Part shown: positions 26,278 through 64,000 of the stretch, in pieces | How positions within the stretch are numbered: the stretch's first letter is position 1 | Layout of the letters: the number at the start of each line of letters is the position of its first letter | DNA from: Bolinopsis microptera | Taxonomy: Eukaryota > Ctenophora > Tentaculata > Lobata > Bolinopsidae | Direction: 5' to 3' | Length of the DNA stretch: 64,000 bases | NCBI RefSeq assembly: GCF_026151205.1 | Contig: NC_087073.1 | Coordinates: forward strand, 6,903,001-6,967,000 | Position numbers and translations under genes: made by a program | The notes under the pieces: generated by a model | Told to the model about the DNA's origin: nothing | The model's input: only the letters and a program-made list of their open reading frames with translations | The model's database searches: none

Positions 26278-26756
26278 GTAAGATAGAGAGATAATTGCAT
26301 CGCATGATGAGTTGGGGCTGAAGTTTTAATATTTTTAATTTTGAAAGTTGACATTCATAATTCATGGCATCCAAACAAAATCTCAGAAAAACACAATTTT
26401 ATTCACAAAATGTTTAGATCTCTTTCTAAGCAAACAGCAACATACAATACCAAAATAATTCCCACAAGTTTTATGATAGCCACATGAGTTCATGCCAGCA
26501 CAGTTGTCATTTAGTGGACGTTTAATTCAAAGATTTTCTTAGGCAGTGTTGAAATCGTGGGGCATTCGTGATATAACTAAAAGATATGTATCTAGATTAT
26601 ATAGCTACCTATGTTTACAGCGTTCTAAATCTCACAATATGTATCATCATCGACTAATGTTCATCATAATTCGAAGACTTAAATTAGCACAAATATCAAT
26701 GATCGAGGGAAAAAGGAGTCTGTTAGGGAATTAAACAAAAGTCTGAAACTCAAGTC

Positions 26757-26763
26757 TTTTATT
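26757..26763 (-). promoter_or_regulatory. Probable poly(A) signal of the nested GPCR
   Basis: AATAAAA on the minus strand, about 180 nt downstream of the GPCR stop codon at 26942. The position is reasonable for the 3' end of that transcript. Confidence 0.5.
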
Positions 26764-26941
26764 TTCAACATCCTTCCTCCAACGTTAGCATTGACTAAAT
26801 CCCGCACAACTCGGTCTTTATTCCGTCACTCTCGAGTCTCTACCTCTGTCTGCTGACGTTATTTTGGCTTTAACACAACTTCTTAGAACCAGTCAAATCG
26901 GGGTAACTAGTAACAGGTTTACTGTCCTGTAAAGGATCTCC

Positions 26942-28502
26942 TCAATGTTTGGTCTCTTGCATGCCTATAGAGGGAGGTCTCATTTCCGTAGTGAGCTGAC
27001 GGTATAGAACTTTACCGTTTCCATTGCTCATCTTTAAAGCAGTCGTGTACCTTCTCTCACCGTTGAAGTGGATTGGGGAAGTACCGCCGTCACCTCTAGT
27101 GGAGGTCATGTTGAAGCTGCTCATCCTGGTGAAGCTGGTTGAGAACCTCTTGATCTTCCTCCGGACGGACAGGGCCATGTCCTCTCTGAACTTTTTAGCT
27201 CTGAGGTAGTAGATGCAGGGGTTGATGCAGCTGTTGAGGGCAATGCAGAGGAAGTGCACCACTATTGTGACGTACACAAAGGGCTGTAGCCCCAGGTTAA
27301 CCATCATCCAGTCCTTATCGATAGCGTCGAAGCGACCCAGGAGGTTGATGAGGGTGTTGATAAAGTAAGGACCGTAACACACTATGAAAGCTACCGTTAT
27401 GAGTAGAACGGTATTCGCAGCATGGGCCATTGCTGCATCCTTGTTGTCCTCCATAGAGGCCTTGTGAGCCTTGATCTTGAGTCGAATGATGACAGCAGCA
27501 CAGCAGGATATCATAAAGAGGGCGGGCAGGATGACCAGCAAGACGTTTATCACAATGTACACCACGTGGAGCTGGTACTCGGAGAAGTTGGGGAAGGTTT
27601 TGCTGAGGCTGGTGTACATGAAGCAGATGTGAGGGTCGTACACGTACTGGTAGCCGCCGTAGTACGGCAAACAGGCCACTGCAAAAGCCAGCAGCCACGC
27701 TGCTGAGCACATTATAGAGCTGTTTCTCTCTGACATCACCACTGGATAGTCGAAGGACCGGTATATGGCGATGCAGCGCCCAAAGCTCAGGATAGTGACG
27801 ATGTAGATGGAAGCAAGAGGCATGGCTATGCCCAACCAACCTATAACGTTCTCAATGATGGTGACAGTGGTGGTTGGGGACGGGAAGTCCCTGCCCTGAA
27901 GGAGACAGTATCCGATGAAGGAGGTCGGGATCACTCCGATGAAATCGGTCAGAGCCAATTGAAAGAGCACTAGAGTTGTAAGGTAGTTGATGCGGCGCTT
28001 CAGCTTCCTCGCCAGCACGTACAGGACGAATCCGTTACCGAACAGCCTGAGATGTAGGGTTTTTAAAAGCAGTAACATATTTGTATGTGTATTATAATTG
28101 CTTGTTTTCTTGGGTAAATTTCTATTGATCCCGTTTTATTTGGTGCGACAAGGAAAAGGCTCTTATCAGGAAAGGAATTATTTAACGTTTCAATGTGACA
28201 ACATCGTATTCATGAGCTCAAATTATTTGTTATATAGAATGGTTGAAAGTATTAAAAATAGAAATTTACACAAGAAAACATTTCAACTATGCGACTCATA
28301 AATAATATTCCAATCCGGATTTTACATAATATAATTGCGTATACGAGAATTTCTTCTGCTATTATCTACTATAGTTTATACTACTTACTCTAAAAGAACT
28401 GGCAAATTTCACCTACCCAAATAGGGCCATAGCGAAGAGAGTTAGTCCCAGAAGCATGTCTACTCGATGGTTGTAGTGTTGAGCCACCGTCTGATTACCC
28501 AT
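26942..28502 (-). CDS. Class A GPCR nested antisense in SMARCB1 intron 7, 2 exons
   Basis: On the minus strand, exon 1 (28502-28417) and exon 2 (28046-26942) join in phase 2 (TTT GG|G CTG) to give 396 residues. Exon 1 encodes MGNQTVAQHYNHRVDMLLGL, with an N-glycosylation site (NQT), and half of TM1. Exon 2 continues LFGNGFVLYVLARKLKRR with the TM1 Asn. TM2 has FQLALTDFIGVIP. The TM3 end is ILSFGRCIAIYRSF, where DRY is replaced by GRC with the Arg kept. TM6 has IVCYGPYFIN (CWxP as CYGP). TM7 has LNSCINPCIYYLRAKKFRED (NPxxY). The Ser/Thr-rich tail is cytoplasmic. Intron 28047-28416 starts GTAGGT and ends CATCTCAG. It is an orphan receptor with unknown ligand. Without the added exon the open frame reads into intron sequence (LLLLKTLHLR), so the two-exon model is preferred. 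Confidence 0.93.
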
Positions 28503-29817
28503 GTTTCTAATCGCTAATCTTTGTGGGAATTTGGTTAGATCTGTACAATTCTTGCAAACTTCATGATTAATTTCGGTCAATAATATAACTTCATGATATC
28601 AAGAAAATTAACATAAAATAATTGTAATGTACTCGAATAAAATAGTAACACAACCAAACGCTGCTAAGTGTACAAGTGGAACGTTGGTTAAATATCTACA
28701 TTTAGAGGGGAGAAAGTAAATCACTTTTACAACTATCATCATGTTTTTCGGCCCTCTTGACGGAATATGTCGCACCGGACAGAAACAAAAACGCTAATTA
28801 GTGATATTTTATTTACTGCTTCGTACCCACCACCGTACCAGCACTCCACAACAAACCGTAAAAATAAAACAAAATTATCAACCTTACCGTGGCCGTCGCG
28901 GAGAGGCCTGTTATAATTAAAGTCTAAAACAGCTGCATTTTCGATTATTTGGACTACTGACTAGTGATAATACTGGGGGTACAACGTGACTAAGATAATA
29001 AAATAGTACTGTATTGAACATTTTGTCGAGCACATAACACAATCTTGCTGCCCTACATTAACCAGGTATTAAATAATATTTAGCCCACGTTGAATGCTAG
29101 AAATATACCACCAACACCACTGTCAATAGGCTAGAGTTTCTTGTAGCGGCTGGAGTTAGTTTATAGAGGACTGGTGAGGAGTTTATACCAGTTACAGGAT
29201 TTTGAGAACCAGTTCATTATTCCAGTACCAGTTCTCCAGTAGACTGGGATCTGTTAACATACCACCGGTCAACATACACGTACTGGGAATCAGTAGCTTA
29301 GAGATTCGATAGTCAGGGTAATAACGATAGTAACAGTGTAGTTACCATAGTAACCAATAGTAACTAATAGTAACAGTAGGCCCGAATCTTTAAAGTTTTA
29401 ATTTCAGTGAAATGCCACCGGTCTCGTACCTAGTATTGGCTCATACCTAGATATAGTTAGTAAGTTGATTTTAAGATAAAGTTAGTGAGGCAATATAGAG
29501 ATACAAATGAAAAATGCCTCATTTTCCTTCTGATGCCTGGAGACTAATGGCCCTACTGAAAGTTCTGAGTCTTCGGAATACTCTCACGTCCACCATAATA
29601 CCAACAATTTACCTGGAGGTAAATAATAAGCACCGGTAACAGACCCTTACTAGCAGCCCTAATTACTGGTCCTCTTATTATAGTTCTGGGTGTTGTCGCC
29701 CACCAGATTAATACATGGTTTGGGACACTAGTGATGGAAGTCTGCAGCTGCCTGACTCATCAGTCGAGTCATGAACATCACTATATTCTTAGTTAAATAT
29801 GGACCAGACCATTATAG
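28503..29817. other. Non-coding part of SMARCB1 intron 7, upstream of the nested GPCR
   Basis: Presumably holds the promoter of the antisense receptor. A short run of GTAAC(T/A)ATAGTAAC repeats lies at about 29320-29370. No coding signal. Confidence 0.4.
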
Positions 29818-29825
29818 CTTGGCAT

Positions 29826-29974
29826 CAGGGACAAAAGGAAATCGCGGCATGTGCGGAATCGCGATTTTGCCCATTATTTGCGACAAATTTTATGTATAGT
29901 CTTATGTAAAGTCTGTTAAAAATCGCGGTATCGCGATTTTTGGGCAAAATAATCGCGATTTTTTTTTGTCCCTC
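29826..29974. mobile_element. 149-bp hAT-type MITE with 8-bp target duplication
   Basis: The element starts CAGGGACAAAAGGAAATCGC and ends GCGATTTTTTTTTGTCCCTC, so the ends are inverted repeats of about 20 bp. It is flanked on both sides by the identical 8-bp sequence CTTGGCAT (29818-29825 and 29975-29982). Eight-base duplications and CA(G)GG-type ends are typical of the hAT superfamily. It is non-autonomous, with no transposase. Confidence 0.88.
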
Positions 29975-29982
29975 CTTGGCAT

Positions 29983-32900
29983 AGCTCGTTGTTAAGTAAA
30001 TTTTATTACTGAAGTAGCACATTTAGCTCCTTGGTCGAAAAGACTGACATGATGCACTGTGGACAGCACAAGTGCTTAACTTGGACAATGGACATGTTAG
30101 TATGTGATTTCAGACTAGGAAACGTTGGGGCAGATCTAATTTGAGTAACTGTCAATTTTGGGACAATTATTCAATTTGAAAGGGGGGGGGGGGGGGGCAC
30201 ACCAGGTAGACACAATAATATATTCATAAACGATAGAGAATAAACTGATAAGCGAAAGAATTAAAGGAATGCAAAATTAAAAATTAAGCTCAGACTACAG
30301 AGAGATATTAGCTCAAAGGCACGGTAAGTGGGTGATGATAACTTTCGGTCGAATAAATTATATAATTATAATGATATCAGACAGTTTCAAAGTGTATGAT
30401 AACTCAGTCTACAGGATGCAGTTATATAAACTGCCTGTACTTACTTAATTATATAGATATCTTATAGAACCACTGGTTCTAAGAACCAGTTGACTACCGG
30501 ACCGTTTCACACTTCCATAACCGAGTGTGCTAGTGCTTAGACCCGTAATTATGTGCTTATCTTGCAGCTGATCGCCTGCCACATGGCGATTAAAATAACC
30601 ATTCTTAAGAGTGATCTCTTTTTAATCTCCATTAACCTCTGTTTTTTACATCTTTCTCGAGAAGACTTAAGTTAAGTCACATAACTAATTACGTAGCATA
30701 TTACTTCCAGTTCTATTAGTTAAAATATGTTGTATTTTAAGAAGTCGTACTTCTGGGATTTACAAGTTATCGCTATGCATCATTAATTGTAGGAAAATAA
30801 AGATCTTATAGTCTTCCTTAAGGGCTGTAATCAACCTTGCAAGTTGCATGCCTACGTTTTGTCACTATGTCGAGGCGGAAAAGGTGCGGGAGACCACCTA
30901 CTCCATAATGGAATCAAATACAATACAATACTTACTTAAACTTACTTCACAATTTTAAAACAATTATCTTATAATTACAACGTAAGAGCATGGGTAATTA
31001 GAGTGCAGAGTATATTTAATTGACAGCAGATAAGCGATTATAAGTATGTAGACCCTCGTCATTAGAAAAATTCCCAATTAAGGAACACTTTTTTATTGAT
31101 GCTAACAAGTCATTCACAATTTTATATTGCGGCGACGACATCGGCGACTTGCAAGAATGACTGGAAATGTAAGATATGACATGTATTCTTTGGACCGGCG
31201 CCATTCAGAAGCTAAACTTGAGAAGAGTCCAAAATGAAGCTATATAATTCAACTGATTCGTTAAAAGTGCATAATTTTATTATTTATTATTTCCATACTA
31301 TATCTCGCTTGAATGACAGTTATATGTGCATCTTCGTAGGGTATATGCAAAGCGTGTAGTAAATGTTACAATTTATTTATTTATATCGTTTCATAGAAAG
31401 TGACGTTATGCTCATCAAAACCGATCTTTCAGACTTCATTACAGTTAAGTGTTAACAATATCTCGTGAGAAGGTCTCTATATTCTACTGGCGTGACTTTA
31501 GTTGTGTGGTATGTTATAATCGAGCTACAGGATAAACAAAACAAACTATGATATTTAGACAAAATGTAGTAGTTGTACAGCAATACTAAGGTTATGGGAC
31601 TACTGTGGACCCTCTACCGGCCGAACCTTGTTAACAAAGCCGCAGTCAAGGTTCGGTGAACGGTAGTTAAAAGCGCTTAAGGGACATAAGTCAAAGTGGT
31701 AGAGCAACATCATGTAGTCGACAAAATGTTGATAAAGCAAAATGTTGACAAAGGGACCGGAATGTTGAGACTTATTGAACCATGACGTTGCAGATCTTAC
31801 ATTTGCGTAGGTTTCCCATGTTCCCACTTACAGAGATACTGCATTTAACTTTATCATTCTCCAACTTTCCCCACTAACCGAAGCTTTTGAGCTTTATTTT
31901 CCCTCCAAAAATTAAAGCAGCCTTAATCCCACCCAAACTTAACCAATCCTTGATATACTACTTAGTCAAGCTCTTACAGTAACACAGTTGAGTGCGCATA
32001 TACTACTTGTAACGGCTCTTACAAACAAAGTTCAGTGATAATACAGGTCATCAAAACTTCGAAATGTCACTTTGTAGCCTCATATATTTTCTATACGCAT
32101 ACCAAAGATCTACCTCGTTTAAACTGGAGAACACTAGGCAATCCATTGGGTCCTGTTTTAGTGTTTTGAAAACAAAGACTAAGTTCTGAATAAAGACTAA
32201 GTTCTGTAGTAAACCATTGCAGGTGTTGTAATGTCTGTGGTATAAGTCATTGGTTGTTTTTATAAGTTTGGCATTGTGGAAACAACGACTAATGAAAGTA
32301 CAGCCCGATGTTATTAATTAGATACTTTGCTTATACTCGAAGAAGTTACAAAACATCTAAGATTTGCTACTCCAAAGTCCACACATAAGTTAAACTATAA
32401 CAGCGGTGCTCAATCATAATTATGGGAGACTAAGAATCATCTAATAATCTTTAACTCGACAATTCGTGACCTTTATTTACAAAATATGAAGTAGTGAGTG
32501 ATTATAAGGAATTTAGGCCACTGTGTATAGTCATACTAGAAGAGTATCTAAGTGATTCCGGCTGCGTTAGTAAAGCGACCCTAAACTTAAAGCTTTGTGC
32601 AACATTGCGGTTAAGCTCAGGTGTAAAATATTTATGGATATAAATATTCATAATATTTAGGGTGATTATCGAGCAAGTGAGTCCTTTTAGCCATCATAGA
32701 ACAACTTAAATCTTTAAAATAATATTAAAACTACGAAAGTATGCACTGTAAAACGTTAAATACCCAAGAAAACCGGCGCGGGTCCTACGTAACATTAGTC
32801 TCCAGAAAACTCTTGAGGTTTTAATAATATAAGGCTTTGGGTCGCCATTAGTCTTGCCAAGAAAGGTCGGGGAGGTAGACGAGAGAGGGGGGAGGGGGCG

Positions 32901-35900
32901 TCATAGTCATTTATTATAATAATGTTAGGTTTTCTTAATCAGCACCGAAAATAATGACAAAATTTAATACATTGCCGCGATCCTTTTTCGAAAGTTGCAA
33001 GTCAATGGCGAAAAAGGGATAGCAGTTGCAAGACATAGGTTGACATTTTTCAACTTATGTCTTAGATCCCTGAAATTCCGATTCCTAATGACCAACCCTT
33101 ATTGAGCAGCCTTCTTGCACGTACATAGAAAATTCGGGCCCAAATTACAAACACAGAAAATATTTCCTCGAAACGCACATTCCGTAGAGACAATGATGGA
33201 CGGTGCGAATAATTGCAAATATAATTATCCCACCTGTTAGTCAGCGGTGTGCTCCACTTATTTTCAAGGAGCGTAACGATCCCATGAACTGTCTCAGAAG
33301 CAGGTAAAGTTTGTGGTACAACAGGTGAACTGTACCGCAATTAAACAGCAGCTGTTGCGTAAGTTTAGGTTAATTAAATTAGAGAGGAAAGAATTAGTAG
33401 ACATCTAACGTAGCACATTGTGATTTTCCTCGTCTTCATTAAAGACTCTTTATAAAGCGGTTGGTGAAACGACAACTGCAGAACACATAAAACAAGTAAA
33501 GGAGTAAAAACTTGACAATCTAACACTGAACCGGTTTCAGGGTACCGAAAATGGTGCCTGCAATTGGAACATCAACGTGTTAGGCGGGCTTTACTTTACT
33601 TATGTTTGTCTCCTCCTATGTTTAGCTTAAATAATACGTAACGACTGTGCAGCAGAAAACCTTTCAATATGTCTCATCCGGGTTATGGTGGATTATGTGA
33701 TAAGAACATCAAGTCTGTAAATAATACTATTAGGTACTAGCATCAAGAAATTAGAATATTAAGCAAATTTTTGTGGATCTTGTGCTCTCTGCGATGGCTG
33801 TCACATTCCACTAGAAGCATTCCTGTTAAAACATACGAACTCTTGCGAAATAACGATTACACACACATGGTTTAACTACGGATGAAGTACCAAACTTTTA
33901 ACTGAGTACGAAAATAAAAAACGCCAGGCATTTCCGTTCCTGTCTACATAGCACGCATTCTCTAACTCCAACAGCCTCGAACTCGTGTCAAAAGGATAAT
34001 GAGTCTAAGGAAATATACTTATTAAGCTTATACATGGCGTTTCTTCTTAGATACCTTGAATAAAGAAATACTTTAAATATAGTTAAGCGCTGTAAGGCAC
34101 AGTTCCTTAAGGTAGGAAAGTGATCAATATAAGAACAGATGTCACGAAATTAAATTACGTTCTAACGCCTCCTTACTTTCAGCAAATATCCGCTTGTTAT
34201 TTGACAATAGAATGATGATTTAGACATGTCAACAACGTAAACTTTGTTAATGATATGATCATAATGTTCTGAACTCGTCAGTTTTCTAACTAATATCTAA
34301 AAGTTGCAATTTTTACCAACATGCTGGCCGTGGCTCCTTCGAAATGACTGTCTCACGGTCATACAAATGTATCTAGTAACAAACAAATACAAATGTAAAA
34401 GTAAGCTATTGAACAATTCGAGTGTGAAGACTAGCTGCAATGGTGTTACAAGCGAACGACTTTGCCACTTTAAGACGCAATATTTTACATCTCGACTGCA
34501 CGGTCGTAACACGCCCTTTTTAAAATCTACTCGCATAAGCTGTCTTCCTCTGATAAGAATAAAACAACAAATTTAATGGGCTTCAGTAGGACTCATCGTT
34601 CTCATGGGTCGCTTGCTCGCAAGAGTCAAGTCAGTAAGTGTTGCACAAAAAAAACAAACAAAAAAACGAATTTAATATTAATAACAAATCGATAGGCCGT
34701 TCTGTCGTGTACGTGATTAATTCAATCGACCGCAAACAGTTAAATAAATAAAAATGAATAGATAAAGTCAAATTTTATACTACAGATACGATATCACTAA
34801 ATAATATCCCAATTTTGCTTCTAAGTTATCCGTCTGCATGTAGAAGCCAACAGTTTAGTCGATTCTAATTACTACCAAAGAAAACTCTGTTCGACTTTCT
34901 TGGGAAAAGTCGTATTTTTCGTCATTTTAATAAAGATGCGTGTCGCGGGGTTTCCAACTAATTTGTGCCACAATTAAAGTAGATGAACTTTACCAGGGAA
35001 TAAATCATCACCCTTCATTCGACCAATTTATAGAAGAATTTTTGCAAATTAGCTGATAGCACAATCAATATTTGCAGTTCGGAACTACAGTAGAACCCCG
35101 TTTATAACTGTACCCCAATACACCAGGGACCGGAAGGTTTTTACTTCCCCCAATTAAGTTCATTTACAGATTGTGTAAAGTGCAAATCAAACTTTCAATT
35201 TAGCGGAATTTTCCGGGAAATGGAGGTTATATTTTAGTCCCTAAACCTCTCGGGGTATTATAGGATATTGTTTATAAATTAACAATTTATTGGGAGGTAT
35301 TTTCTATGCAATGTGCTGCTGCAAACAAAAACCTAAAAATAAATTGGACAAAAAGGACAGCGACACTCCCTCTATATCAATCTAAGTTAAACACGAACAG
35401 TATGCAAGTTTGTTGAATAGAAAATCCTTTTAAATTAAATGAAAACGTAAATGGAAGCTATGAAAAATCAGGAGTGCTGATTGTGATAGCATTTTGTAGG
35501 CTATAAAACAAGCGATTCTTTAAATACAGGTTTATCGGAGATAGTTGTAAGATTTCCCCAAATAAGTAAGGAAGGAACATATTGTCTCAATGGCTTAACT
35601 GCTCTTCATTTGGGCATTGTTTAATGTTTACACGTATCTTCTATTGAGCAAGTGACTCACTGCCCACTGGACTTAATAAGGTTATACAGAATATAACCGG
35701 CTACAAATGAACAGGGACGCAAGGGTCACAGAGATAAGCGGATGTTGTCGGAACTGCGAGTTTTAGCAGCTACTTCATGGTGGTTCTGACGTCGGGTTTC
35801 CATTGGATCCACAGTCATATTGACATTTCCCAGGGATAGGGAAGCATAAAACTCATCACACACTGATAGTGACCTACGAGATGACTCGACGTCTCTTGAG

Positions 35901-40992: not shown

Positions 40993-41029
<37 letters not shown>
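40993..41029 (+). repeat. Poly-G homopolymer (37 nt)
   Basis: Longest homopolymer of the window. Such runs can form G-quadruplexes and are error-prone in sequencing; the true length is uncertain. Confidence 0.9.
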
Positions 41030-41031
<2 letters not shown>

Positions 41032-44000: not shown

Positions 44001-45670
44001 CGTGGGAGTGTGCGACTTACCAGTTTAACATCAGAGTGCAAACCGTACAATGCAACTGCAAATAATCTGTTCATATCTTCCTTGATATTGTATTTAAATC
44101 ATGATCACATGACGATTAAAGATAGTTCAAGGTTGTCACCTGGTCCACAATATAACCCGCTCAGTATAATTCCCGAGTGTGTGTTAGCTCCCAGATGTTA
44201 GGTCTTAGTAATTAGTATAAAGCTTGGTCATTAGTTAGGAGCAATTATTCGCAAACCAATCAACTGGAGAATGATCGATTTGTTAAAACACAAGATTTAG
44301 CTCTAATTGAAGTGATCATGTGACTATGTGCAATTCATGATGATGGAGATGATCTGACAAAGGATTTATCTTTATTTATCTGCAATCTTGTGAATATTGG
44401 CATGGAGATTATAATCAATCTTGAATATTTAATCTCGGATAATTATATCAACAAGATAACTAGATATTAGTGAACTAATCCGAGATCGCTCGAACAATTA
44501 TTTGTCAATTACGTTCAACAGTACTAATTAGGGTGTAGGGGTAATGGGTATTACTGGTGTGTTAGCCGATATAAATTCCAGGAATAAATCATAAATCGAG
44601 TATACCCTGCCATCTATCACAGCGTAAGTTTTTGTATTGTGAAAACCAAACAAAAACGCGATGAAATACTGCACTGTATTTATGTGCTAACATCACGTCC
44701 GTATCAAATATGGATTTCAAAGAAAAATGTTAATTACTCACTGTCCAAGTGGTTCTCCTACAAACATTTTGAGCAAAGAAGAAATCCTTACGTCGACATC
44801 TTACGAAAAAGAATTTTATTTTGGCATATTGACTGTTACTACCTTATTACATGAAATTTGTGCGAAACTTAATTTGTTCGATTTTCCTCAAAATCACTCA
44901 AATTATTAATTAAGTGAGCGAACATTAAGTGACGCATATTTAATGTCCATATTTAATGGTTTAAATTTATCAAATTTTAATGGGTCAGCAAACTATAAAG
45001 CCGAAAAATAAGTAGAGAAAACTAAACCAAATGCCTGTTATATGTGATAAAACAGCGATCCAAGTCAAAAGTATCACACACTAGGCTGCTCCGTGAACTC
45101 TAGTTATGATGATGGTATTCTGCCAGAATTTCAACTCATCGTACGATTGTAAGATGATTTTGTGACTGGTACTGCTATGAGTTGACCCAGTCCAACAAAA
45201 ATACAAGTGTTAAAACTAAATGAGTATTCACAAAATTTAGTCAGTGGTAAAAGTAAAAGTCAAGTGAACTGTGAAAATTATGAACAACATAGTCGCCATA
45301 TAACGGATAACATAATTCTTAAGCATCCGTGGTTTCTTGCTTCATTAACTTGCTTCATTTGCTTGCTCTCCTTCCCTCAAAAGTCAAGACATTCAATGCA
45401 TACTTTTAAAAATAGACTTAGTGGTTTCCAATTCTAAGTAGAACTCAACAAGCGAAAGATAAAAAGATAAAAAGCTTGTGCCAATGTTATCGCGACACGA
45501 AACGTCACGGTATCCTGAATTCTTAAAACAGAATATGTAGACTTCCGAGTTCCGACAAATGCAAAAATACCACATTTAACGGTATAAAATGAGCACTAAA
45601 TTGTACGAGGGTTGGGAATATGAAAGATTAAAAGCAATATTTGACTGACTAAATGGTTAAGCCACAACTT
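41030..45670. other. Anonymous interior of SMARCB1 intron 7
   Basis: A poly-C run lies at 41753-41766. Short tandem duplications are present: CATAATTATTTCATCAGAAAC twice (about 42534-42592) and CATGACAACTCAAGAACCGT twice (about 43646-43710). No gene supported. Confidence 0.4.
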
Positions 45671-45775
45671 CCCATTATTTGCGACAAATTTTATGTATAG
45701 TTTGATGTATAGTCTGTTAAAAATCGCGGTATCGCGATTTTTGGCCAAAATAATCGCGAAATCCTTTTGTCCCTG
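45671..45775. mobile_element. Truncated copy of the 149-bp hAT MITE
   Basis: Starts inside the element at CCCATTATTTGCGACAAATT and runs to the terminal TTTTGTCCCTG. It matches 29870-29974 closely but lacks the left terminal repeat, so no target duplication can be assigned. Confidence 0.85.
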
Positions 45776-46542
45776 TGTCAAGTACAATCTGCTGGGATAT
45801 ATGAGATGTGACTTGAATCTTTCGTTTTTATCTTAACTTGGGAAACTTGAACTATTCTAATGAGGAACAACCTCGAGATTTGACAATATCTGTTACAAAA
45901 AGGAGACCAAACTTTATGTAGTTGTACATATTAGAGAGAAAATAAGCGCCATTCTTGGACGCAAAGAGGATTAAAGAGGATTAAAAACTCCTGTATAAAA
46001 CTCTTTGAACTACATGAAATATGCTCCATCAGTCATATCACATTTTTCGACTTCCTACTCACGTCAAAGCTGTTTTGACCAGTTAAATATGAGAGAGCGA
46101 TGAGTGAGATGGAAGCAACTGTGTGCAAAAAAGATCAGCGTAAAGCTATCAATTAGTTCAGAATTCAGTTGCGTGAACAGACATGGAGCCGGTTTAATTT
46201 TTAAGTGTTCTAGAATTACCCTAGTTCTTGTAACTAACTGGAAAAGCAGATACTCCAGACTTCCTATTAAGTTTCTGGTTTGAACCCCAGACCTCTGGAT
46301 CGAGCAGTGAGGCAGAACCCCTGTAAAGTTGGGTTGAATGTATACCAAAGTGGCTTCAATATACAACTATTGAAGTTAGCTTTTCCGACCAGACTCTTGT
46401 CTTTTTTGTTGTTGTTTGATTTTGGTGTTAAAATGAATTTCCTCGTTTACTGATTTAACGAGGATTACATCCTGATATTCAACATGGTGTTGAATATCGG
46501 GATGTCATTATTGATAATAACTACAGCTGTTCTCAATGGATA

Positions 46543-46952
46543 CAAGGACAAAAGAAAATCGCTATTATTTAGGCCAAAAATCGCAGCGCCGCGACAAGCC
46601 AAACTAGGCAAAATCGTGGCGAAAATCGCAGCAAAAGACAATCTATTCGCACGAATAGATTATGAATTAAGGGTAGACTGGTTTGTAGGCTAATGACTTG
46701 CTAGTTGGTTTGTGTGTACGACTTAGAGGTGGTTACTTAGAGTTAGAGTTTGTTCGTAGAAACATTTCCTTTGCCCTCATGAGTTTTTGTTCATATTGTG
46801 TTCGCAAAGGTATGTTATAAAGTTATAATATAGATTTATTGTCTTAAAAATTGATCAATGTTCTCATTGTTCCAAATCTCACTTAACAAATTTGTCTCGG
46901 AGAATGTGAAAAATCGCGATTCCGCAAGTACCGCGATTTCCTTTCGACCTTG
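46543..46952. mobile_element. 410-bp hAT-type element with 8-bp target duplication
   Basis: Ends CAAGGACAAAAGAAAATCGC and GCGATTTCCTTTCGACCTTG are inverted repeats (four mismatches in 20). They resemble the ends of the 149-bp family. The flanking 8-mers are identical: AATGGATA at 46535-46542 and 46953-46960. No transposase frame is visible; the interior differs from the shorter family. Confidence 0.85.
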
Positions 46953-46960
46953 AATGGATA

Positions 46961-49900
46961 TGATTAGACAAAAAATCACAAGAGTAACGATTTTAAAAAT
47001 AGACGATTATAAACATTTCGAAAGTCAGCTGCGCTCGCGCTGTTAATAAGTTTGGTAAATACTTACTTCAGATAATTTTATAACGAACAGATATTGCAAC
47101 CACCCCCACTCGTATTAACACTTCACACACTGAACTATGTGCAGGCCGGGTTGCGGTTAAATACTAGCAATGTATTTTCCCTTACTATCGAGTAGGAAGC
47201 GCAACAAAAACGCAATTAATCCGCGGGATATCCTAGAATATTCACAAAGACCTAGGTTCTATCGTCGACCGTTCATTTTAAACTATTATAGCCCATGAAC
47301 ACTGTTAAACATGCTAAAATTAAATATTTGGATTGAATTTGTGGTAATTTGAGGTCTGATGACGCATGATAGAGAAAATGGACCAAATACTATATTCCGG
47401 GCAAACCATTCCTCATGCTTGAATGTAAACGTTTAATGACTGCCCCGTAAACTGCCGTTAAATAATGAATATTAAGTACAGATCAGTCGCTAAAATGCAA
47501 ATAAGGGGCCACCACATTTACTATTGCCTCTGATGATAGCGTTGGACCACAGGCTTCAAGTAAAGCAAGCGAATATATTCAATGTTTTGTGTGAATTGTT
47601 GGATAATCAGCTAAGTTGTGTTTCATCAATTGTCTTAGGGTTTAAAACTTTATTTGTCATTATCGGTCACCAGTACGACAAATAAAACATGTTGGTGAAA
47701 GCCTCAGATGGATTCTAAATGAATAAATCAGCTAATATGATTTATTACAGACAATTCCGAACAAATATATTGCTGACTTCAGTGATTATCGATTCACCTT
47801 TAAGGTTGAACATTATGCTACAGCAGACATTTGACGTAACAAAGAAATATGAATTCAGGAAAATATTTAAAATTCTTAGACCCGGCTTAAGGTAGTTCTA
47901 GAGGTGACCAAAGCGTGCAACAACTGTGTGATTACTGTGTGACTACTGTGTGACCACTATGCGACTATTTTGTGACTACTCTGCGACTACTAATACTATG
48001 TGACTATTCTGCTGATTAATGAAATTGTGGCTAAACTGCTGCTCTATCAAATACCTGTTACAAATTACAGGATTCTGCACAATTGTAACCACCTGCAAGA
48101 TTGAAAGTGAATCAATAAGCGGAAGTATTAATTAAATTTGATTGAATGGCGGGATTAATATGCACAAATTGTCCAATATTCAACCCAGTAGCCTGTCGAT
48201 TTATCCTGCGCTGGATATTTTGAATAATTCCAGCATTTTTAAATTGGCCAAATATAATATTATGTTCTATCCTCTTCCAAGAAGACAATGCAATCTCTCT
48301 GCTCTTATCATCGAGCAGAGGTCAACTCAGCTATGCTGTGTACGTCTTACAACACTGTAATTTCTCATACTGAACAGTAGTCAACGCAGCCGTGGCTAAC
48401 TTAGAATAAAGTGCCGTATTAACTATAAATTAAGATTTAAAAATTGGATTTTTGACGTTTTTATTTAAGATTGTTCGGTGTATGGTTCTCCCCAGCACAG
48501 CACTGAATCCTAGTTAGAGGTTATGGTTCACTCGAGTTAGGGGTTATTAGGGGAAATGAGATCGCTTAACATAAGCTGATTTTGGGCGAAAATGAAGAGG
48601 TACGATAAATCGGGCCTCGGGGTTTACCTGTAAAATGTTTAGATAGCTTGTAAAACTCGCTGCAGGGTTTGGTATTGCACTGTTATAACTTATAATAGCC
48701 CCTAAAAATAATAGTTTGCCGACTAAACTTTGAAAATCAGAATACTCTAATATTTTGACTATTCATTCAAACATCAAAGTTCTCTGTCTTAAGAAGGCTG
48801 AAAGAAACCTTTAAGTTTTAAGCTTTTCAAGTTTTAACGTTTTTCCTTTGAATCGTTATTATATATGCCAAAATTTTGAACATTCTTAGACTTGATAGTA
48901 ACGTTGTAAGTGATGTCCAGATCGGCGTTAAAAAGGTGTGGGGTGCTGTAAAATGATTGGTATACAAACTTCTACATTTTTGTGAGTGGCCAATAGAAGA
49001 ACACCTGGCACACATAGAAGGACACCAGGCGCTTGGGGGAACTCAAGAACGAAAATGCAAGAAAAAAGAATTCATCGTGCGTGTCAGGACAATTTAGCAG
49101 CCATAAGTGCGAAGTAGGTGTTGACTACTGTCACTAAAAGCAATTAAATAATATTTATCGCTAGATCGGTCCGGCTCCTATTGCACTATATTATTATTAC
49201 TATATTTGTTGGGGTGAGACCTTAATTCCTTGTGATTCAGCTGAAAACTTAGGAAAGCGTTAATAGTGAGTGTTCTTACGGACTGAGACTTTAAAGTTAT
49301 GCGGCTTTCGGTTTGAACTTCACATGAAACTTCCAGTCCATCTTTTCGTCGCGTTATTTTGCTGATATTCTTAGCTAAGTTTCTGTAACATTTTATAATG
49401 GAGATCCTAAAGTTAGACCATATGTTTTAGACTATAAAGCAACTCTTTTGCTGAATCTAACCGATCTAAAGTTTTCAATACCGAAAACTTCAATTCTCAT
49501 TAGACATTAACAGTGTCAACGTTGACTGACATAATGCTATCTAAATCCTTTTATTATAAAATTAAGAGTATTAATATAACTGAATATACAAAAAATACTT
49601 GAGTTCTCTATCAAGGCAAGGATGGCACAAGGCTTCAAAACTACTGAATACCAACTATCACTCTGTGAGCAAAAATTACAAAAGTGACAAACTAACATGC
49701 TCTCATGGTATATCAGGCAGTACGGATCCTGACTGCCAAGTTAAACGTGTTTATTTTAAAAAGTTAAAACATACTCGTACCACACCTGAATCACGAGTGT
49801 GTTCCAGAACGGAAACTTGGAGCAATATCTTGTGTTGCAAAATATAAAATCTTTTCGTCTTGCACACTGTAAGAAATATAATTGGGAGTGTTTAGGGATC

Positions 49901-50120
49901 GCTGACAGGTTAATTTGGTGGGATATTACCGTTCCTTAAAGCTCAGAACAAGGCTGCAAAGTCTCATAGCCATTTGATCACGTGACGTTTATCACGTGAC
50001 TTTTGATCAATCCTGGGATTTATGACCTCGACTGGGCAACAGTGTGATTTTTATGAATTTTCTGAACCCCTTGGTTCCCCGCAGAGTTTTACGATTGCAC
50101 ATACTTTCAACTATATTTAG
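46961..50120. other. Anonymous interior of SMARCB1 intron 7
   Basis: A degenerate 11-13-bp tandem repeat (TGTGTGACTACTG variants) lies at about 47921-48005. No coding exon recognised. Confidence 0.4.
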
Positions 50121-50175
50121 GTTTGGCCACTATACGGCCTCTATAAGACCACGATACGGCCTCTTTACGGCCACG
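50121..50175. repeat. Third fragment of the GGCCNCTATAC family
   Basis: TTTAGGTTTGGCCACTATAC followed by GGCCTCTATAA, GACCACGATAC, GGCCTCTTTAC and GGCCACGA. It shares both the unit and the TTTGG flank with 12.6 kb. Confidence 0.75.
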
Positions 50176-50370
50176 ACTTCATCTTGTATGCTAAGATATA
50201 AACTTTATCAAATCCTTTATTGACGATTTTAAATAAAACAATATAAAGCTTCGACCTTTTAAATATTCGATGTTAAACTTTCTTTTCCGGATGTTGAATT
50301 TGTACGGCAACGAATCTAATTTAGACAGATACCATAGCGAGCAACAGTTAAATGTTATATGATAAACTAT

Positions 50371-50401
50371 GAGATCTCCTCCTCCTCCTCCTCCTCCTCC
50401 T
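50371..50401. repeat. (CTC)n trinucleotide microsatellite
   Basis: About nine CTC/CCT triplets in a row. Simple repeat. Confidence 0.9.
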
Positions 50402-51039
50402 CATAAAACACTCGGGGACAAGATTAATATTATTAAATATATTGGTTTAAAAAATAAAAGTCTGTTTGCAAAATAGCTATACTCCTAAACATTAACAATC
50501 TATCTTACAAGTACTTTAAAGCTTTAGTAGTGAGCATATTTTCCCTCTGCAGAGAAAACCTAATAAAGGTTTAAACATCACTGTTGTTTTTTCTGTAGGA
50601 CTATTCGGAATTTTAAAATTGGTTAACTTAATCAACATCTGCTCATGCCGACTAATTGTTGAAAGATAACTAAGGAGAATATTTGCATATTAAACGGGGA
50701 AAAACCAAATGTTCAATCAAACAAATTTAACATCAGGCGGAAAGTTTAACGTTGCTACCTCAAACACTCACACAAGGATTAGCCCGTTGAATTTGAGTTG
50801 ATAAAAGTAACCAATGTAATGATTCGGTAACCAATGTAATGATTCGTGCACATGAAATAGTCGACCAATATCACAAATTTTTGAAAAATTTAGTAAGCAG
50901 AGCGATCTTTGTTGCAAAATCAAACCAGAAGTCCTACATCTCTGTAACATCTGTGTAATGATATGTGGGGTAAACGCACTTTACTCAATATGTTGATTAG
51001 ACTGTAAATATGTCAAGCTACACTTCACTAGTACATATT

Positions 51040-51172
51040 GATAAATAATAGATATAAAGATACAATTTATTTATAAATAAGATATTATATACAAAAAATA
51101 TATATTTACATATTATGTAATTATATATTTATATATAATTATATAATATGTAAATATATATTTATAAATAGC
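51040..51172. repeat. AT-rich palindrome
   Basis: ATATATATTTACATATTAT and ATAATATGTAAATATATAT flank a central AT tract, forming a potential cruciform of more than 80 bp. Confidence 0.75.
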
Positions 51173-52404
51173 GGTCTTATTCTCAACTCACCAGCGAGGT
51201 ACTAATAGTTAAGAAATGAGCTGTCTAACTTCTTTAGCACTAAATTCTAATAGAAGCCCACGAATTTATGTTGCGTTCATTGCACACTCACGTACGCTGT
51301 GAAAATTAATAATCATGTCCGAGTCAGGACCAATGTCTTCCCTTGATATATATTATCGGTCTTTCGGATATTCCTTCATCTTGCATACTTCATACATACT
51401 TCATACATTAATCATGATAATGTTCAAGGGGAAAACTCAAAGAATTTGCCCTTTTTTACTCTTCTTGAATCAACAAAGGAATGCAAATATAACCGACTGA
51501 AGCATTATAAGTAACATTACCGGGCCACAGGGTCCCATATAGTTTTAAACTAATTACAACACTACGAATCTATTACATTTATTGAGAAAATTATGTAATG
51601 TAACGCGATGGAAGTTCTTTAAGCGGGCAATTCCAGTCCAAACCCTGGAAACATGACATAAAAGATTCGTTTTTACTTGTTTGAATGAAAAGCACTAATA
51701 CAATAGATTCCTATCATGGGAATCATGTATGTACATAGGGGATAAAGTAACTTTTTATAATCACCATTCTCTGGTTTGAACTTGCCACTTTTTTAACTCA
51801 AGGTGTAGGCTGGATTGAAATTTTAACAAATCCATAGTAATACAGACCGGTGACTGTGCACCGAGTCTGTATTTATATAACGAGTATTAAATTATCGCTC
51901 CTACTTCATAACCTACAAAAATAATGATCATGTACCGAACAATTATCACATTTTTATGAGCATTGTTGATGTTCACTGACGCTCACCCCGACAGAAGCCG
52001 CCCCAGGTAAAGGGAAACCTTAATAAACTGTCAAGTGAAATGCACTTGTCAGTTTATGAATCTCTGTGATCGAGCTGCTCTTAAACTCCAGACATCTGGG
52101 TCGTCTTAACTCTTAAGCCCCGTAGGCTGAGCTTTGAGCCACAACCCTGGGCGTACAAATGACGATATTCTTTCCATTTTAAACTCGAAACATCAAAGGG
52201 CGGGATTTTGACAGATTGAACTTAAATGTCCAAGAATATAAAAAATGTAATGTAAGCTATACTGTATCGATCTAAATGCTTAAATGTCTCTAAACGAAAT
52301 TTTCTTTCCCCCGAGAAGCTCTGCTGTAAAACCAAATTTAAATTTCCCGGAAAGGAGCACGATTTTCCTCATAGGATTGCATGAGAACCAAGCACGAGTA
52401 TTAA

Positions 52405-52500
52405 ATATAACCAAGTGAGTATTATAGAACAAAGTGAGTATTTAAGAACCAAGTGAGTATTATAGAACAAAGTGAGTATTTAAGAACCAAGTGAGTACTA
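52405..52500. repeat. About 42-bp tandem repeat (AAGTGAGTATTATAGAAC / AAGTGAGTATTTAAGAAC)
   Basis: Two alternating 20-22-bp half units, AAGTGAGTATTATAGAACA and AAGTGAGTATTTAAGAACC, repeated about two and a half times. Confidence 0.85.
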
Positions 52501-52726
52501 AATAATCCTATTACTGATTTTATATCAGGACAAAGACACGTCAGGAGATATTATAGTCATCACACGAAGCAACAACAAACACCGGCACTGTTTAATGTAC
52601 CCGTCCAGATTACATAATCTTAGATCAAGATGATTCAATCGATTAATAAAACATCGACTTACGGCACGATCAATCAATCTAATGTGTATAAAATTATATA
52701 TTAAGCTTTATAAGTTATAGAACATA

Positions 52727-53493
52727 CAGGGTGGGCCAAAAGTCAGTACCCATACGTTGGCCTTTATAGCTCAGTCACTGAGTGCCCAATTTAAATACTT
52801 CTTTCTGGTATGACTTAGTACCACCACTGGTTCGAGGAATTTGTCAACTTGAAAAATATTCACGTTCATTTTTTTCAAATTGAGGTTCATTTTCACATTT
52901 ATTTGATAGTTTGGATAGTCGGATCAAGCTAAATGATATTGAATTGTGTTTGTCCATTCGAATTACGTTTGTCCTGAAAGAATTAGAACTGTAGCTTCTC
53001 AGATGACCGAGATATGAAGCATAACGAGTTTATTCATTACGTGTGATCAGGTGATTGGTTTACCTAATCACGTGATAAGGTGCCCCCGTTAACTACCCCG
53101 TTAAACATTATGGGAATTGTTAAGGGTGCCCAATTAAGGTGTCGTGTCACGGTGTCACATAATCACCCAGTCAATATTGTTAACGAGATACAGAAAATGC
53201 TTGATAACTTCGTCATTTCTAATCCGTTTTGCCTCATGTTTTCAGATCATATGCAACATTTGATAATCTACCGTCTCTTAAAAAATTAGGCTTTCAGCAT
53301 GTTCAGAGAAAACAATATAGGTGTTTTAATATTGAATGGGCGTGGTCTAAAATATTCGAATTTTCAAATGTTGACGACGGAATCCTCGAACCAGTAAGTA
53401 CAGTATGCCATCTGCAAAGCAACAGCTCTCAAATATAAAACACGGCGGAGCTATTAAGGCCAACGTATGGGTACTGACTTTTGGCCCACCCTG
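52727..53493. mobile_element. 767-bp element with Tc1/mariner-type ends, TA-flanked
   Basis: Starts CAGGGTGGGCCAAAAGTCAG and ends with its inverse (CTGACTTTTGGCCCACCCTG); at least 35 bp pair. TA is found outside both ends (52725-52726 and 53494-53495), the target used by Tc1/mariner transposons. The left 330 bp match the fragment at 11397-11731. The right half carries an exon-like segment (53246-53393) with no transposase similarity that I recognise. Confidence 0.88.
53246..53393 (+). other. Exon-like segment inside the TA-flanked element
   Basis: Preceded by a pyrimidine-rich CCTCATGTTTTCAG, open throughout, and followed by a consensus donor GTAAGTA. It would encode about 49 residues, including NLPSLKKLGFQHVQRKQYRC. 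I do not recognise the protein. It could be a captured host exon or a transposase relic; coincidence is also possible. Confidence 0.3.
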
Positions 53494-54596
53494 TATTATA
53501 TAAATATAATAGGAGGCTGAGTTAAAAGGCAACCCGCAACATGAGTGATGAGATTGGGGAATATCATAGGTTTGCGTGATACATCCAAACACTCAGTTCA
53601 TTTTTCTTTAATGTGATAAATGAATAATTGGAAGTATATGTGGTACAGCGATATTCGATTATTTGGGGAAAAATGAGAGCCTTCACTCAGTGTATCTTGT
53701 ATTGGTGTATCTTGTCCCACATAATCGAATATGATCGACGCACTAGTCACAAGAGCAAAAAAATATACCTAAAGCTACAGATAATAAAGAGAAGCCTCCC
53801 TACTAATGTTATAACACGTTTCATGCTTTATAGAATTAGAAGTGTTAGTGGTATCTGGTATTCTCAGAGAAATTTTAATTTCGTCTGCGCAAATTGGGTA
53901 AATTGCTTCAATTAGCTTATGATTAAAATATGATGTTCACGTTTCGCAAAGTAAATATTATTTTTTCCCCGACTTTACAACGAATATAATATGTATTGTG
54001 ACAATATTATAGAAAAGGGCGATTGAACTGTAACGATATGTAACCATTCTCCTAGATATTTGTATCAAAATATACTGTTGTATTTCAAAATTACATGTGC
54101 TACCTGACAAATTATGAACGATAATTACTCCCCATATGAAGAAGCTTTGATCACATTTCTCCCAACAACTGTGAACGATTCCAGTTAATGAATTAGATAA
54201 ACTCCTAGTTATTGGTGGGCTTTAAAACAGTTGGAACTTTGAGCTCGTTTGTTACAAATTACAGCAATTTGAGCCTACATTTAAAAACCTATACGAACTC
54301 AACTTTACCAGCGATTTGTAAAGACATGTTCATGATAATGCACAAAAAAACTCAGAAATATGTGAAATATGTGGAATATGTCTGCTACTTTTGGTTCTGA
54401 TAAATCCAGACACTGAGTAGACCGAATGTAATGTTAGATGCACAAACCAGATGCCTAACGAGTAAAGACAGCTTTTACAGAACTAACTACCAAAGGGCTG
54501 AGCCGTTATCTGTGCAGTGTAAATCATTCATAGTCAGTAATAAAGGTGTTAAGCCACAGTCGCCTCAAGGTTATCCAGTGTAGAATCTTAAGATTG

Positions 54597-54770
54597 GTGG
54601 TGATCACGAAGACGACGTATCTCGAGGCGACCCGCTTGTGACTCTATTAGGGAATATCACCTAGCAAATTAAAATAATGTTAATAAATTATGATTTCTGA
54701 TAAGCCGAAACTAGTCGAATCACAAGCGGGTCGCCTTTACATAAGTCTTTTCCATGTCTTCTTGATCACC
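54597..54770. repeat. Short fold-back element with perfect 17-bp inverted core
   Basis: AGGCGACCCGCTTGTGA (54625-54641) and TCACAAGCGGGTCGCCT (54720-54736) are exact inverted copies. A second inverted pair lies outside (GGTGATCACGAAGAC / GTCTTCTTGATCACC, one mismatch). The middle is AT-rich. MITE-like; no target duplication identified. Confidence 0.7.
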
Positions 54771-55234
54771 ATTGATGTAATTAAAATTAAGCTCCACTAA
54801 TGAAGATAAGTCGACTAGACCAATTGTTATTATCTTAATGGCATTTGTTCATCAATATTTATTAGGTCCAGGTCTCTATCATCTGCATATAGGTTACCGC
54901 TGATATAATCCTCGTATTTAATAATATAAGCCGTATTATATGGATTAACTTTAACGGAGTCAGAATAATCATCCAAATGTAAACCCCACAAACTTCATTA
55001 CAAAGAACAACAATAAAAGCATGTCATCTGCATCGGAGTGTTATAAAGTTGTTGTACTCTATAAGTGTATATTCACCTACAAGCATAACTGCTTGGCGTG
55101 ATGAGGTACATCTTTGATTGGTCGAAGGTCTTTCAACAACACAGCATCATCACTTTCATAGTAGTCCCCGGCTTATGACGGGTTCATAGCGGTATTAAAC
55201 ATGTTTTTCTGGGCCCAAACATTCTACGCTCCTA

Positions 55235-57949
55235 CTATGCTATTACTGGTCTCTTGACTAACTCCCAATCATCTGTCCATATGGTATTGTTTCTGGACAA
55301 ATAGATGGTATACGATGCCCTCAGGCTGATCTCAGCGATCTTCATGCAGGCCTTCTTCTTCTCTTTGTTGTTTACGTTCAGGTGGTTCATAAAGGTTGGG
55401 AGGCTATAGTTGTAAATGCCTCGAGCTCCCACTTCTACTGTCTGGAGCTTGCAAGCCCATCCGTTGGCTTCTATCTCTTCTGTCAGCTGCTGATATCTCT
55501 TCATCTTTCGCTTCTCTTGATCAGCAAAGTTCTGCTCATTTCCACAAGTCAGCTCCATTAGATAAACCTTCTTTGCTTTATCTGAATAGATCACTACATC
55601 AGGTCTTAGTGTAGCTGCAATGTGCTGCGGGAAGTTCCTCTGTCTCTCATCCTCATCAAATATTATCTTCCAGTCGTTGGCATCTGAAAAGAAATATCTT
55701 TGGGTCTTATGATGAGTTGGGTCAGCTAAGGTAACCTTCTCGCGCTTATTGCCTGCCTTGTGAAAGACCGACGGTGCCCTCTTCGATTCCTTGGCGATGT
55801 CGGAATTAAACTCTTCAATCTGTGATGAAACGGTCTTCATGATTTCACGTAGGACCTGATCATGGCGCCAGTTGAAACGTCCCTGTCTTAGTGCAACCTT
55901 ACAGAACGTCAGGATATGATTGAGTGTCCCTTGTTTGCTGCAGAGTTTACAGTTTCCTGAAACGGCTTTATTCCAAAGCTTTAGGTTGCTAGGTGTTGAC
56001 GCAGTGTCATGAATAGCATTGACATGAAACTTTAACAGTTCCGGACTAAGTTGATAGATCAAGTTATTCCACGTGGTGTCAAATGTCATTGTATTTTCCC
56101 ATGTGAGAAAGAGGTTTTGCCGCTTTTTGTCAAAAAGTGAACAAATAAGTGTCTCTTCATCAAAGGTCCTCACCATGTTGGTTAGCAGTTTCCTCTCTGA
56201 TGTGTCCTCATATCTTGTCCCATACCCGAGGCCAGTTGTACCAACTGCAGGTTTTCCAACTAACTCTTGGAAGTAAAGTTGGCGCTGACGGTCTTTCAGC
56301 TCTTTGGGATAAGACCACATCTTCTGTGTGTCTGCAATTGCCTTATGGTTAGAGTACACTTTTTTGATGTAGGGGTCACTTGAGTTACAAAGTTGGTGTC
56401 CCTTAATAAGTTGGATGACTTTGTACTCAGTGCAGATGTTTTTCAGCTGCAATCCTTTCTGGTCTCTACTCCTGTAGAGGACGGTGGTGGTACAAGGATG
56501 CGCAATCCCTAGCCACTTCTTAAGGTATCTGTTACACAGTGCCTCAAGCTCTCTCACAAATGTGATGGGTAGGTTATAAACAGTAAACCCCCATGACATC
56601 TTACTAATGATGAGGTGGTTATACACCCACGCCTTCATTGGACCGGTGATTTCATCATTAGACGTTGTTTCCAAAAGGTCCTCTAACTTCTTCTTGATCA
56701 TGGACCGAATTTCCTTTACCTCAAGATCTACATACATGTACATTCCTAGGAACTTCATTGGTGCTTGGATAATGGACGGCACCTGTTGTTCGCTTAGTAC
56801 AAACTCTGAATCATAGGTATTGTACTTTCCTCCAGTACACTTCATAGACATAGACAGGCACTTCGATGGTTTAGCCTTCATTTTCTTCGACCAGTCCAGG
56901 AACTCTTCTACTACCTTCAACATCTTCTTCATCTCCTTCTCGCTCTTCGACAACAGGGTTAGGTCATCAGCAAATGCTTTCTTTGAGGTCTTGCTATCAC
57001 TGAAGCTTGGCTCATACCCAACTTGACTGCACAGTACAGCTAGAAGTTCCAGTAGGATGTTGAATACTATAAGGAACAGGATCACGGACAGTGGGTCTCC
57101 CTGGAACAGGCCTAGCTCATACCAGAATGTTCTGGATGTCCATTTCCTGCACTTAACTAGGACACTGAGGCTTCCATAATACTCTATTATAAGCTTAATG
57201 AAGCTTTCAGGTAGGTGGTACCGGCGTAGGGCATAAATAATAAGGCTGTGCGGGACTCTCCCATACGCATTCATAAGGTCAATCCAGATCACGTGGACTT
57301 GTCTTCTGTGGCTTTTAGCATCTTTAATCTCTTCAAGGAGGGCTTGAGTGTGTTCTAGGCAACCAGGGGTTTTCTTCATGAAACCTTTCTGTACTGAGGT
57401 GTCAATGAACAGATTTCGTGTCATGTGCTCAAGTACACGGTCTCCCGAGATGGCAAAGAACAGCTTCCCACTACAGTTTTGGAGTGTGATGTTACGGAAC
57501 TTGCCAGGATCTTTTAGATCATCCGTTTTAGGAATTAATGTACTCACTCCCACCTTCCACTGTGGGGGGACAACTCCTGTTTTCCAAATCCTGCATATCA
57601 GATGGTGTAGATGGTGACTGAAAGTTCGACACTTCTTGTAGATCAGGTAGTTGACACCATTTGACCCAGGTGCTGACTTATTTCTCCTTGACTTTAGCTT
57701 TAGGTGGAATTCATCCCATGTGGGTGGCGCTGTACTGCATATCCAATTAGGTTTGTCAAGGTCTTTCAGTCCTGTGGGGTTAACATAGTCACGCTCTCGG
57801 TCATCATCTTTGTACTCCTTTTCAAAGAACTTAGATGCTTCTTCACTGTCGAACTCAGGCTCTTTATCTTTAGTCTCTTCCTTCGTGAGCAGTTTCTTAC
57901 CATACTCATAAGGGTTTCTTCTAAAGAGTTTGGAGCTATTCTCTTTCAT
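55235..57949 (-). CDS. Non-LTR retrotransposon ORF: reverse transcriptase plus restriction-like endonuclease
   Basis: An uninterrupted 904-codon frame. Residues about 90-400 are a LINE-type reverse transcriptase: SAPGSNGVNYLIYKKC, motif A IDLMNAYGRVPH (Asp224), LFQGDPLSVILF, and the catalytic AFADD at 325-329. A CCHC knuckle follows (Cys667, Cys670, His678, Cys683). Then comes a restriction-like endonuclease: RPDVVIYSDKAKKVYLMELT with PD at 783-784 and Glu799. This order (RT, CCHC, RLE) is that of the R2/NeSL/CRE-type early-branching non-LTR groups; which clade is not decided here. The N-terminal DNA-binding region expected in that group is missing: an in-frame TAA lies seven codons upstream of the first ATG, and the DNA beyond about 57960 becomes simple AT-rich sequence. 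The copy is therefore probably 5'-truncated, but its intact frame implies recent insertion into the SMARCB1 intron, antisense to the gene. Confidence 0.93.
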   Translation of the reverse strand: MKENSSKLFRRNPYEYGKKLLTKEETKDKEPEFDSEEASKFFEKEYKDDDRERDYVNPTGLKDLDKPNWICSTAPPTWDEFHLKLKSRRNKSAPGSNGVNYLIYKKCRTFSHHLHHLICRIWKTGVVPPQWKVGVSTLIPKTDDLKDPGKFRNITLQNCSGKLFFAISGDRVLEHMTRNLFIDTSVQKGFMKKTPGCLEHTQALLEEIKDAKSHRRQVHVIWIDLMNAYGRVPHSLIIYALRRYHLPESFIKLIIEYYGSLSVLVKCRKWTSRTFWYELGLFQGDPLSVILFLIVFNILLELLAVLCSQVGYEPSFSDSKTSKKAFADDLTLLSKSEKEMKKMLKVVEEFLDWSKKMKAKPSKCLSMSMKCTGGKYNTYDSEFVLSEQQVPSIIQAPMKFLGMYMYVDLEVKEIRSMIKKKLEDLLETTSNDEITGPMKAWVYNHLIISKMSWGFTVYNLPITFVRELEALCNRYLKKWLGIAHPCTTTVLYRSRDQKGLQLKNICTEYKVIQLIKGHQLCNSSDPYIKKVYSNHKAIADTQKMWSYPKELKDRQRQLYFQELVGKPAVGTTGLGYGTRYEDTSERKLLTNMVRTFDEETLICSLFDKKRQNLFLTWENTMTFDTTWNNLIYQLSPELLKFHVNAIHDTASTPSNLKLWNKAVSGNCKLCSKQGTLNHILTFCKVALRQGRFNWRHDQVLREIMKTVSSQIEEFNSDIAKESKRAPSVFHKAGNKREKVTLADPTHHKTQRYFFSDANDWKIIFDEDERQRNFPQHIAATLRPDVVIYSDKAKKVYLMELTCGNEQNFADQEKRKMKRYQQLTEEIEANGWACKLQTVEVGARGIYNYSLPTFMNHLNVNNKEKKKACMKIAEISLRASYTIYLSRNNTIWTDDWELVKRPVIA

Positions 57950-58356
57950 CTTTTTCCTTTCTTTCTTTTATAAATATTAAATTTGAAATATATTTAAAAT
58001 AAAATATATTCAAAATAAAATAAATTTAAGGTATATTATACATAATTTTCAGCTAAAATTCCCTCCACTTAGCAGCCACTGGCATTATTTGGATATAATT
58101 ATAGTTATTAGCTATATTAACATTGTCCTGTGCAACAATTTCATGGTTACAACAAGCCACACCGTTCAAAGAAGCTAACATTTAAACACCAAGCTTCGCA
58201 CCAGAATTGAATTTGTTTAGAAGTTATGTCTGCGCTGGCTCACCACTAACGAGAAGTTAAATTGAGTAATCGAAAACTCATTAAATGAAAGTTCTAAACC
58301 ACGGACAGTAAAAAGTAAATTAGTTTTCCCCAGTTCATAACCACCTGTTATTTCAG
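57950..58356. other. AT-rich junction between retrotransposon and SMARCB1 exon 8
   Basis: At 57955-58030 there is low-complexity (TTAAAATAAAATATA) sequence abutting the 5' end of the retrotransposon frame. Ordinary intron sequence ending in the acceptor TTATTTCAG follows. Confidence 0.5.
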
Positions 58357-61997: not shown

Positions 61998-62002
61998 CGA
62001 TT

Positions 62003-63875: not shown

Positions 63876-64000
63876 GTGTAGTTTAGGCTTACCTTTTATA
63901 TAAAGTTAGTTTCATTAAAAAATATTGATATTTGACCAATTTATGTTATGGGCCAAAATCGATCAAATTTGGTGCGTATGCCCAAATATTGGCATATGGT
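63876..64000. mobile_element. Start of a second copy of the 18.5-kb fold-back element (cut by window end)
   Basis: It follows the right arm of the first copy (about 19438-19560) with moderate divergence: TGTAGTTTAGGCTTACCTTT, then TTGATATTTGACCAATTTAT, then TTTGGTGCGTATGCCCAAAT, up to the last base. Entry is internal, so the left boundary near 63876 looks truncated. Confidence 0.85.

Follow-up and report, generated by a model that had tools for sequence, protein, structure and literature searches.

A 32-kb intron dividing SMARCB1 in the ctenophore Bolinopsis microptera, with a predicted receptor gene nested on the opposite strand

We identified a SMARCB1/INI1 gene divided by a single intron of 32,079 bp in a 64,000-nucleotide stretch of the Bolinopsis microptera genome (NCBI RefSeq assembly GCF_026151205.1, contig NC_087073.1, positions 6,903,001 to 6,967,000 of the forward strand; hereafter the window, numbered from its first letter). 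We have high confidence in the following explanation: the gene is intact; its seventh intron is of old animal origin and has expanded to 32 kb through mobile repeats and additional sequence; and an unrelated G protein-coupled receptor (GPCR) gene sits within this intron on the opposite strand. In our model, rebuilt from the sequence, SMARCB1 has ten coding exons, extends from 23612 to a stop codon at 60598, and encodes 390 amino acids without an internal stop. The parts of the two genes are as follows.

23612-23769, 24090-24237, 24512-24562, 24945-25117, 25399-25523, 25668-25768 and 26212-26277, + strand: SMARCB1 coding exons 1-7 (gene model, human SMARCB1 match, Pfam)
26278-58356, + strand: seventh intron of SMARCB1, 32,079 bp, phase 0, GT-AG, matching human intron 6 in position (splice sites, length)
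58357-58502, 60201-60286 and 60480-60598, + strand: SMARCB1 coding exons 8-10 (gene model)
26942-28502, - strand: nested class A GPCR, coding exons 28502-28417 and 28046-26942, 396 amino acids (gene model)

Human SMARCB1 matches the 390-residue model colinearly, including across the junction of exons 7 and 8 (E 2.2e-114, query residues 16-388). Two Pfam domains are present: SNF5 (PF04855; 178.5 bits, cut-off 21.8), which occupies residues 189-381 and profile positions 2-225 of 225, and the N-terminal INI1_DNA-bd (PF21459; 91.3 bits, cut-off 27). A search of the 264,652,675-base genome with the PF04855 profile gave two matches (three candidates, all scored), one to exon 5 and one to exon 8 of the present gene; genome-wide uniqueness covers the SNF5-domain exons, exons 1-4 lying outside that search. 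These matches favour one intact SMARCB1 gene here.

The initial annotation had described seven SMARCB1 exons packed into 2.7 kb and then a single intron dividing the gene, and both statements hold: exons 1-7 lie within 2,666 bp (23612-26277), the length of the intron is exact, its boundaries are GT-AG in phase 0, and the joined frame stays open. The junctions read AAG/GTAAGATA at the donor and GTTATTTCAG/CTGAAC at the acceptor; the acceptor is pyrimidine-rich, and by eye this donor comes closer to the standard consensus than the other eight do. From 5′ to 3′, the SMARCB1 introns measure 320, 274, 382, 281, 144, 443, 32,079, 1,698, and 193 bp, so the eight others span 144-1,698 bp. The further claim that all other introns are at most about 1.7 kb is borne out for the two genes that we modelled, the nested GPCR having one intron of 370 bp. 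The intron after exon 8 is of the GC-AG type (donor AG/GCGAGT at 58503).

Counted along the alignment with human SMARCB1, the junction falls after human K265. In human, the variant c.795+1498C>T is placed in SMARCB1 intron 6 (PMC12644159; PMC9540472); since it is named as an intron 6 variant, human exon 6 ends at c.795, that is, at codon 265 in phase 0. The seventh intron of B. microptera SMARCB1 and human intron 6 therefore share codon boundary and phase in orthologous genes, but not their length or content: the human intron is about 8 kb long and is not known to contain a nested GPCR. The exon 5/6 boundary in the window presumably also equals the human one (c.628/629), and several other boundaries presumably do not. 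The location of the split inside SNF5 repeat 2, singled out in the initial annotation, is thus real but not peculiar, as the human gene is interrupted there too, between the same codons. That the two genes share this boundary argues strongly for a genuine intron passed down by descent.

A full antisense GPCR gene had also been proposed within the intron, and we find it to be real, with two coding exons, a 370-bp intron, and 396 encoded amino acids. All of its coding exons lie inside the single SMARCB1 intron, which makes it, as far as the coding exons go, a nested intronic gene; its stop codon is separated from SMARCB1 exon 7 by 664 bp. The open frame containing GPCR exon 2 matches 7tm_1 (PF00001) over the full length of the profile (1-260 of 260; 90.1 bits, cut-off 30.5), and the best solved relatives of the same frame, all of low similarity, are C3a, CysLT2, and opioid receptors. 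No second copy of the gene was found in the genome: the best-scoring other match among 95 listed (the best 104 of 354 candidates being scored) is 28% identical. Two origins of the nested GPCR were rejected, namely a processed retrocopy (by its own modelled 370-bp intron and the absence of a close relative among the matches listed) and a local duplication from the GPCR at 20697-21650 (in the best alignment, about 60 residues are aligned at 29% identity, E 0.003). The latter is a second class A frame, on the + strand upstream of SMARCB1, and is not close kin of the nested receptor.

The intron also contains several transposons, as the initial annotation had it: we found a 2,933-bp retroelement fragment and eight short multi-copy stretches.

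28144-28332: short interspersed repeat inside the GPCR's own intron, 91-92% identity in two listed matches
29827-29973: short repeat with a 97% identical match on C4, partly similar to 45671-45774
31551-31723: repeat unit of ~160 bp, found in tandem arrays at several other places in the genome
41074-41782: interspersed repeat; identity is 65-86% in matches of more than 150 bases and reaches 100% in shorter pieces
45669-45775: short repeat, partly inverted relative to the start of 46538-46965
46538-46965: interspersed repeat, longer matches 78-94% identical
51536-51712: interspersed repeat of ~165 bp, nearly all listed matches 95-99% identical, similar to a miniature inverted-repeat transposable element by size only
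52709-53511: terminal-inverted-repeat element, arms 52709-52772 and 53448-53511, 88% complementary; a related copy lies at 11398-11734
55035-57967, - strand: 5′-truncated copy of a non-LTR (long terminal repeat) retrotransposon with RVT_1, nearest solved relatives R2 proteins (profile, PDB, copy comparison)

Together the repeats sum to about 5.7 of 32.1 kb (~18% of the intron), which is a lower bound; the repeat search passes over very common words, is limited to the 40 best candidates for scoring, and as a DNA search excludes 26278-28135. About three quarters of the intron is neither gene nor detected repeat. Inverted copies of a 337-nt repeat (97%), at 11398-11734 and 52724-53060, flank the 5′ half of SMARCB1 at a distance of 41 kb, and this pair could recombine to invert the intervening segment.

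The frame of the retrotransposon matches RVT_1 at 83.5 bits and, in the PDB set, R2 proteins at E 4e-29. Ten listed copies elsewhere in the genome cover the whole element at 98-99% identity, and many others cover only its 3′ part. Upstream of 57967, eight of ten other copies whose ends were compared share 60 bases and one shares the last 38 of them, while the C8 copy is shortened further in; the window copy, in contrast to the copies elsewhere, has unrelated sequence there. The window copy is therefore 5′-truncated, and its 910-residue frame lacks a natural start. No fixed target site was seen on the side compared: the 3′-flanking sequences differ in all eleven copies viewed (ten others and that of the window). 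The near identity of the ten long copies and the lack of a common 3′ flank suggest that this R2-like family has been active recently.

We gauged the length of the intron against a sample of introns from the same genome, taken as gaps between query-contiguous neighbours among myosin and HSP70 exon matches (128 of the 133 rows, 68 gaps; two families, so possibly biased). After removal of one gap of 2 bp, which is not an intron, 67 introns remain with a median of about 246 bp; three are longer than 5 kb and one is longer than 10 kb. The longest, a myosin gap of 18,971 bp, holds a 975-residue non-LTR retroelement frame with RVT_1 and an endonuclease domain. Another myosin gap of 8,181 bp has two long frames that were scanned, one with a DUF7869 match below the cut-off and one matchless, and a third of 5,375 bp is mostly tandem repeats. 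A length of 32 kb lies at the extreme end of the range for this genome, yet long, repeat-laden introns occur elsewhere in it.

Further genes in the intron were sought in several ways. Among 105 of the 121 open reading frames of at least 55 codons (the other 16 are, or overlap, GPCR or retroelement frames), a Pfam scan gave only one weak match, to PDDEXK_13 at 0.0034. No transfer RNA was found in the intron, nor any Rfam match at the gathering score. A codon-usage scan of 28.6-55 kb gave nothing above a Markov null (best score 9.0, against top values of 7.2-11.8 in 20 simulations); applied to SMARCB1 itself, the scan ranked five of the ten exons (1, 4, 5, 8, and 10) among its top 45 in the correct frame, at scores of 9.1-14.6, of which only two exceeded 11.8. 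The scan thus makes a further long coding frame in the intron less likely, although small or untranslated exons could be missed. Recursive splice sites were sought with one strict pattern, a test of low power, which gave no match in the intron where 0.13 was expected.

From these features, we infer that SMARCB1 transcription would run through the whole interval 26278-58356, and that the ordinary spliceosome would remove the 32,079-bp intron in cis, from the near-consensus donor to the pyrimidine-rich acceptor. The GPCR would have a promoter of its own, upstream of 28502, and its transcript would be spliced independently. The SMARCB1 intron was probably lengthened by insertions, both of mobile repeats and of other sequence. 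Several points weigh against this explanation. The intron exceeds all 67 sampled introns; with ~18% of it recognised as repeat, no more than part of the length is explained by repeat growth; and the codon scan has little power to detect short exons, as its half recovery of SMARCB1 indicates.

One proposal is compatible with the explanation given above and adds a function to the nesting, so that transcription of SMARCB1 and of the GPCR would interfere with or induce each other, or the two genes would share intronic control elements. The layout allows interference or shared regulation, as the initial annotation had pointed out, and such an effect is possible, following from the layout only. An opposite-strand nested gene that affects its host has been reported for ceh-10 / polq-1 in C. 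elegans (PMC12274878), 69% of loop enhancers in ctenophores have been described as lying in introns (PMC12221973), and another paper deals with interference by nested genes in introns (PMC3192792). The C. elegans pair is like ours in that a gene lies in the opposite direction in a host intron, the host there being a DNA repair enzyme; it differs in that a regulatory effect was measured there (PMC12274878). However, given how common nested genes are (PMC8527503), there is no need to assume a special role, and we infer that no special regulatory link exists; functional nesting is in our judgment unlikely. It is more doubtful still that the antisense GPCR in SMARCB1 represents an old, conserved ctenophore arrangement which ties transcription of a core BAF-complex subunit to that of a signalling receptor, with receptor expression tuning elongation or isoform choice of the host in particular cell types.

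The initial annotation had regarded an assembly join as its main alternative. Under such an error both halves of SMARCB1 would be real and the intervening 32 kb wrongly joined or inserted; the B. microptera assembly is described as Hi-C scaffolded and gap-closed (PMC10232365), and multi-copy repeats do occur between 26278 and 58356. But no other match to the SNF5-domain exons of either half was found in the genome, and the 64-kb window (38.0% GC) contains no N. Nor did the GPCR and the four intron segments searched yield a second full-length copy (26278-28135 being searched as GPCR protein only). The halves are ordered on the same strand of the same contig, as a colinear protein, and phase and splice sites agree. 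If there were a misjoin, the intron position shared with human intron 6 would need to have arisen by chance. Because both halves have their SNF5-domain exons only here, the window lacks N, and the intron sits at the human position, we consider an assembly join very unlikely.

Trans-splicing of two separate SMARCB1 transcription units is barely credible: ctenophores are described as having spliced-leader trans-splicing (PMC8527503), and the two halves lie far apart, but an ordinary donor and acceptor in matching phase bound it, human has an intron at the same place, and the second half, which has no methionine near its start, would make a poor stand-alone gene.

Two other features of the window lie outside SMARCB1. 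A near-perfect palindrome at 18493-19857 consists of two 678-nt arms, 98% complementary and 9 nt apart, parts of which recur at 63831-64000. Downstream of the gene, a telomere-like ACCCTG unit is repeated in about 52 copies in a chromosome-internal array (61680-61998), followed by a 62-bp tandem repeat (62003-62164).

Nested intronic genes are frequent in animals (PMC8527503). In the ctenophore Hormiphora californensis, 2,357 of them were counted in 1,654 hosts, and 1,109 have a transposable element next to them on one side or both (PMC8527503). Those genes resemble the B. microptera GPCR in lying within one intron of another gene; the species is a different one, and the SMARCB1/GPCR pair is not named in the passages of that paper (PMC8527503). 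Within the literature collection searched, we found no publication on SMARCB1 in connection with nested genes and introns, or on SMARCB1 in a ctenophore. The locus is ordinary in kind and a tidy example of a nested gene. It offers a clean worked example of an intron position common to human SMARCB1, much lengthened, with an antisense gene nested in it. It is also a warning for annotation, since a gene finder that allows only short introns would break this SMARCB1 into two false genes. If the nesting is conserved among ctenophores, the locus would be a convenient site at which to test interference between host and nested genes outside bilaterians.

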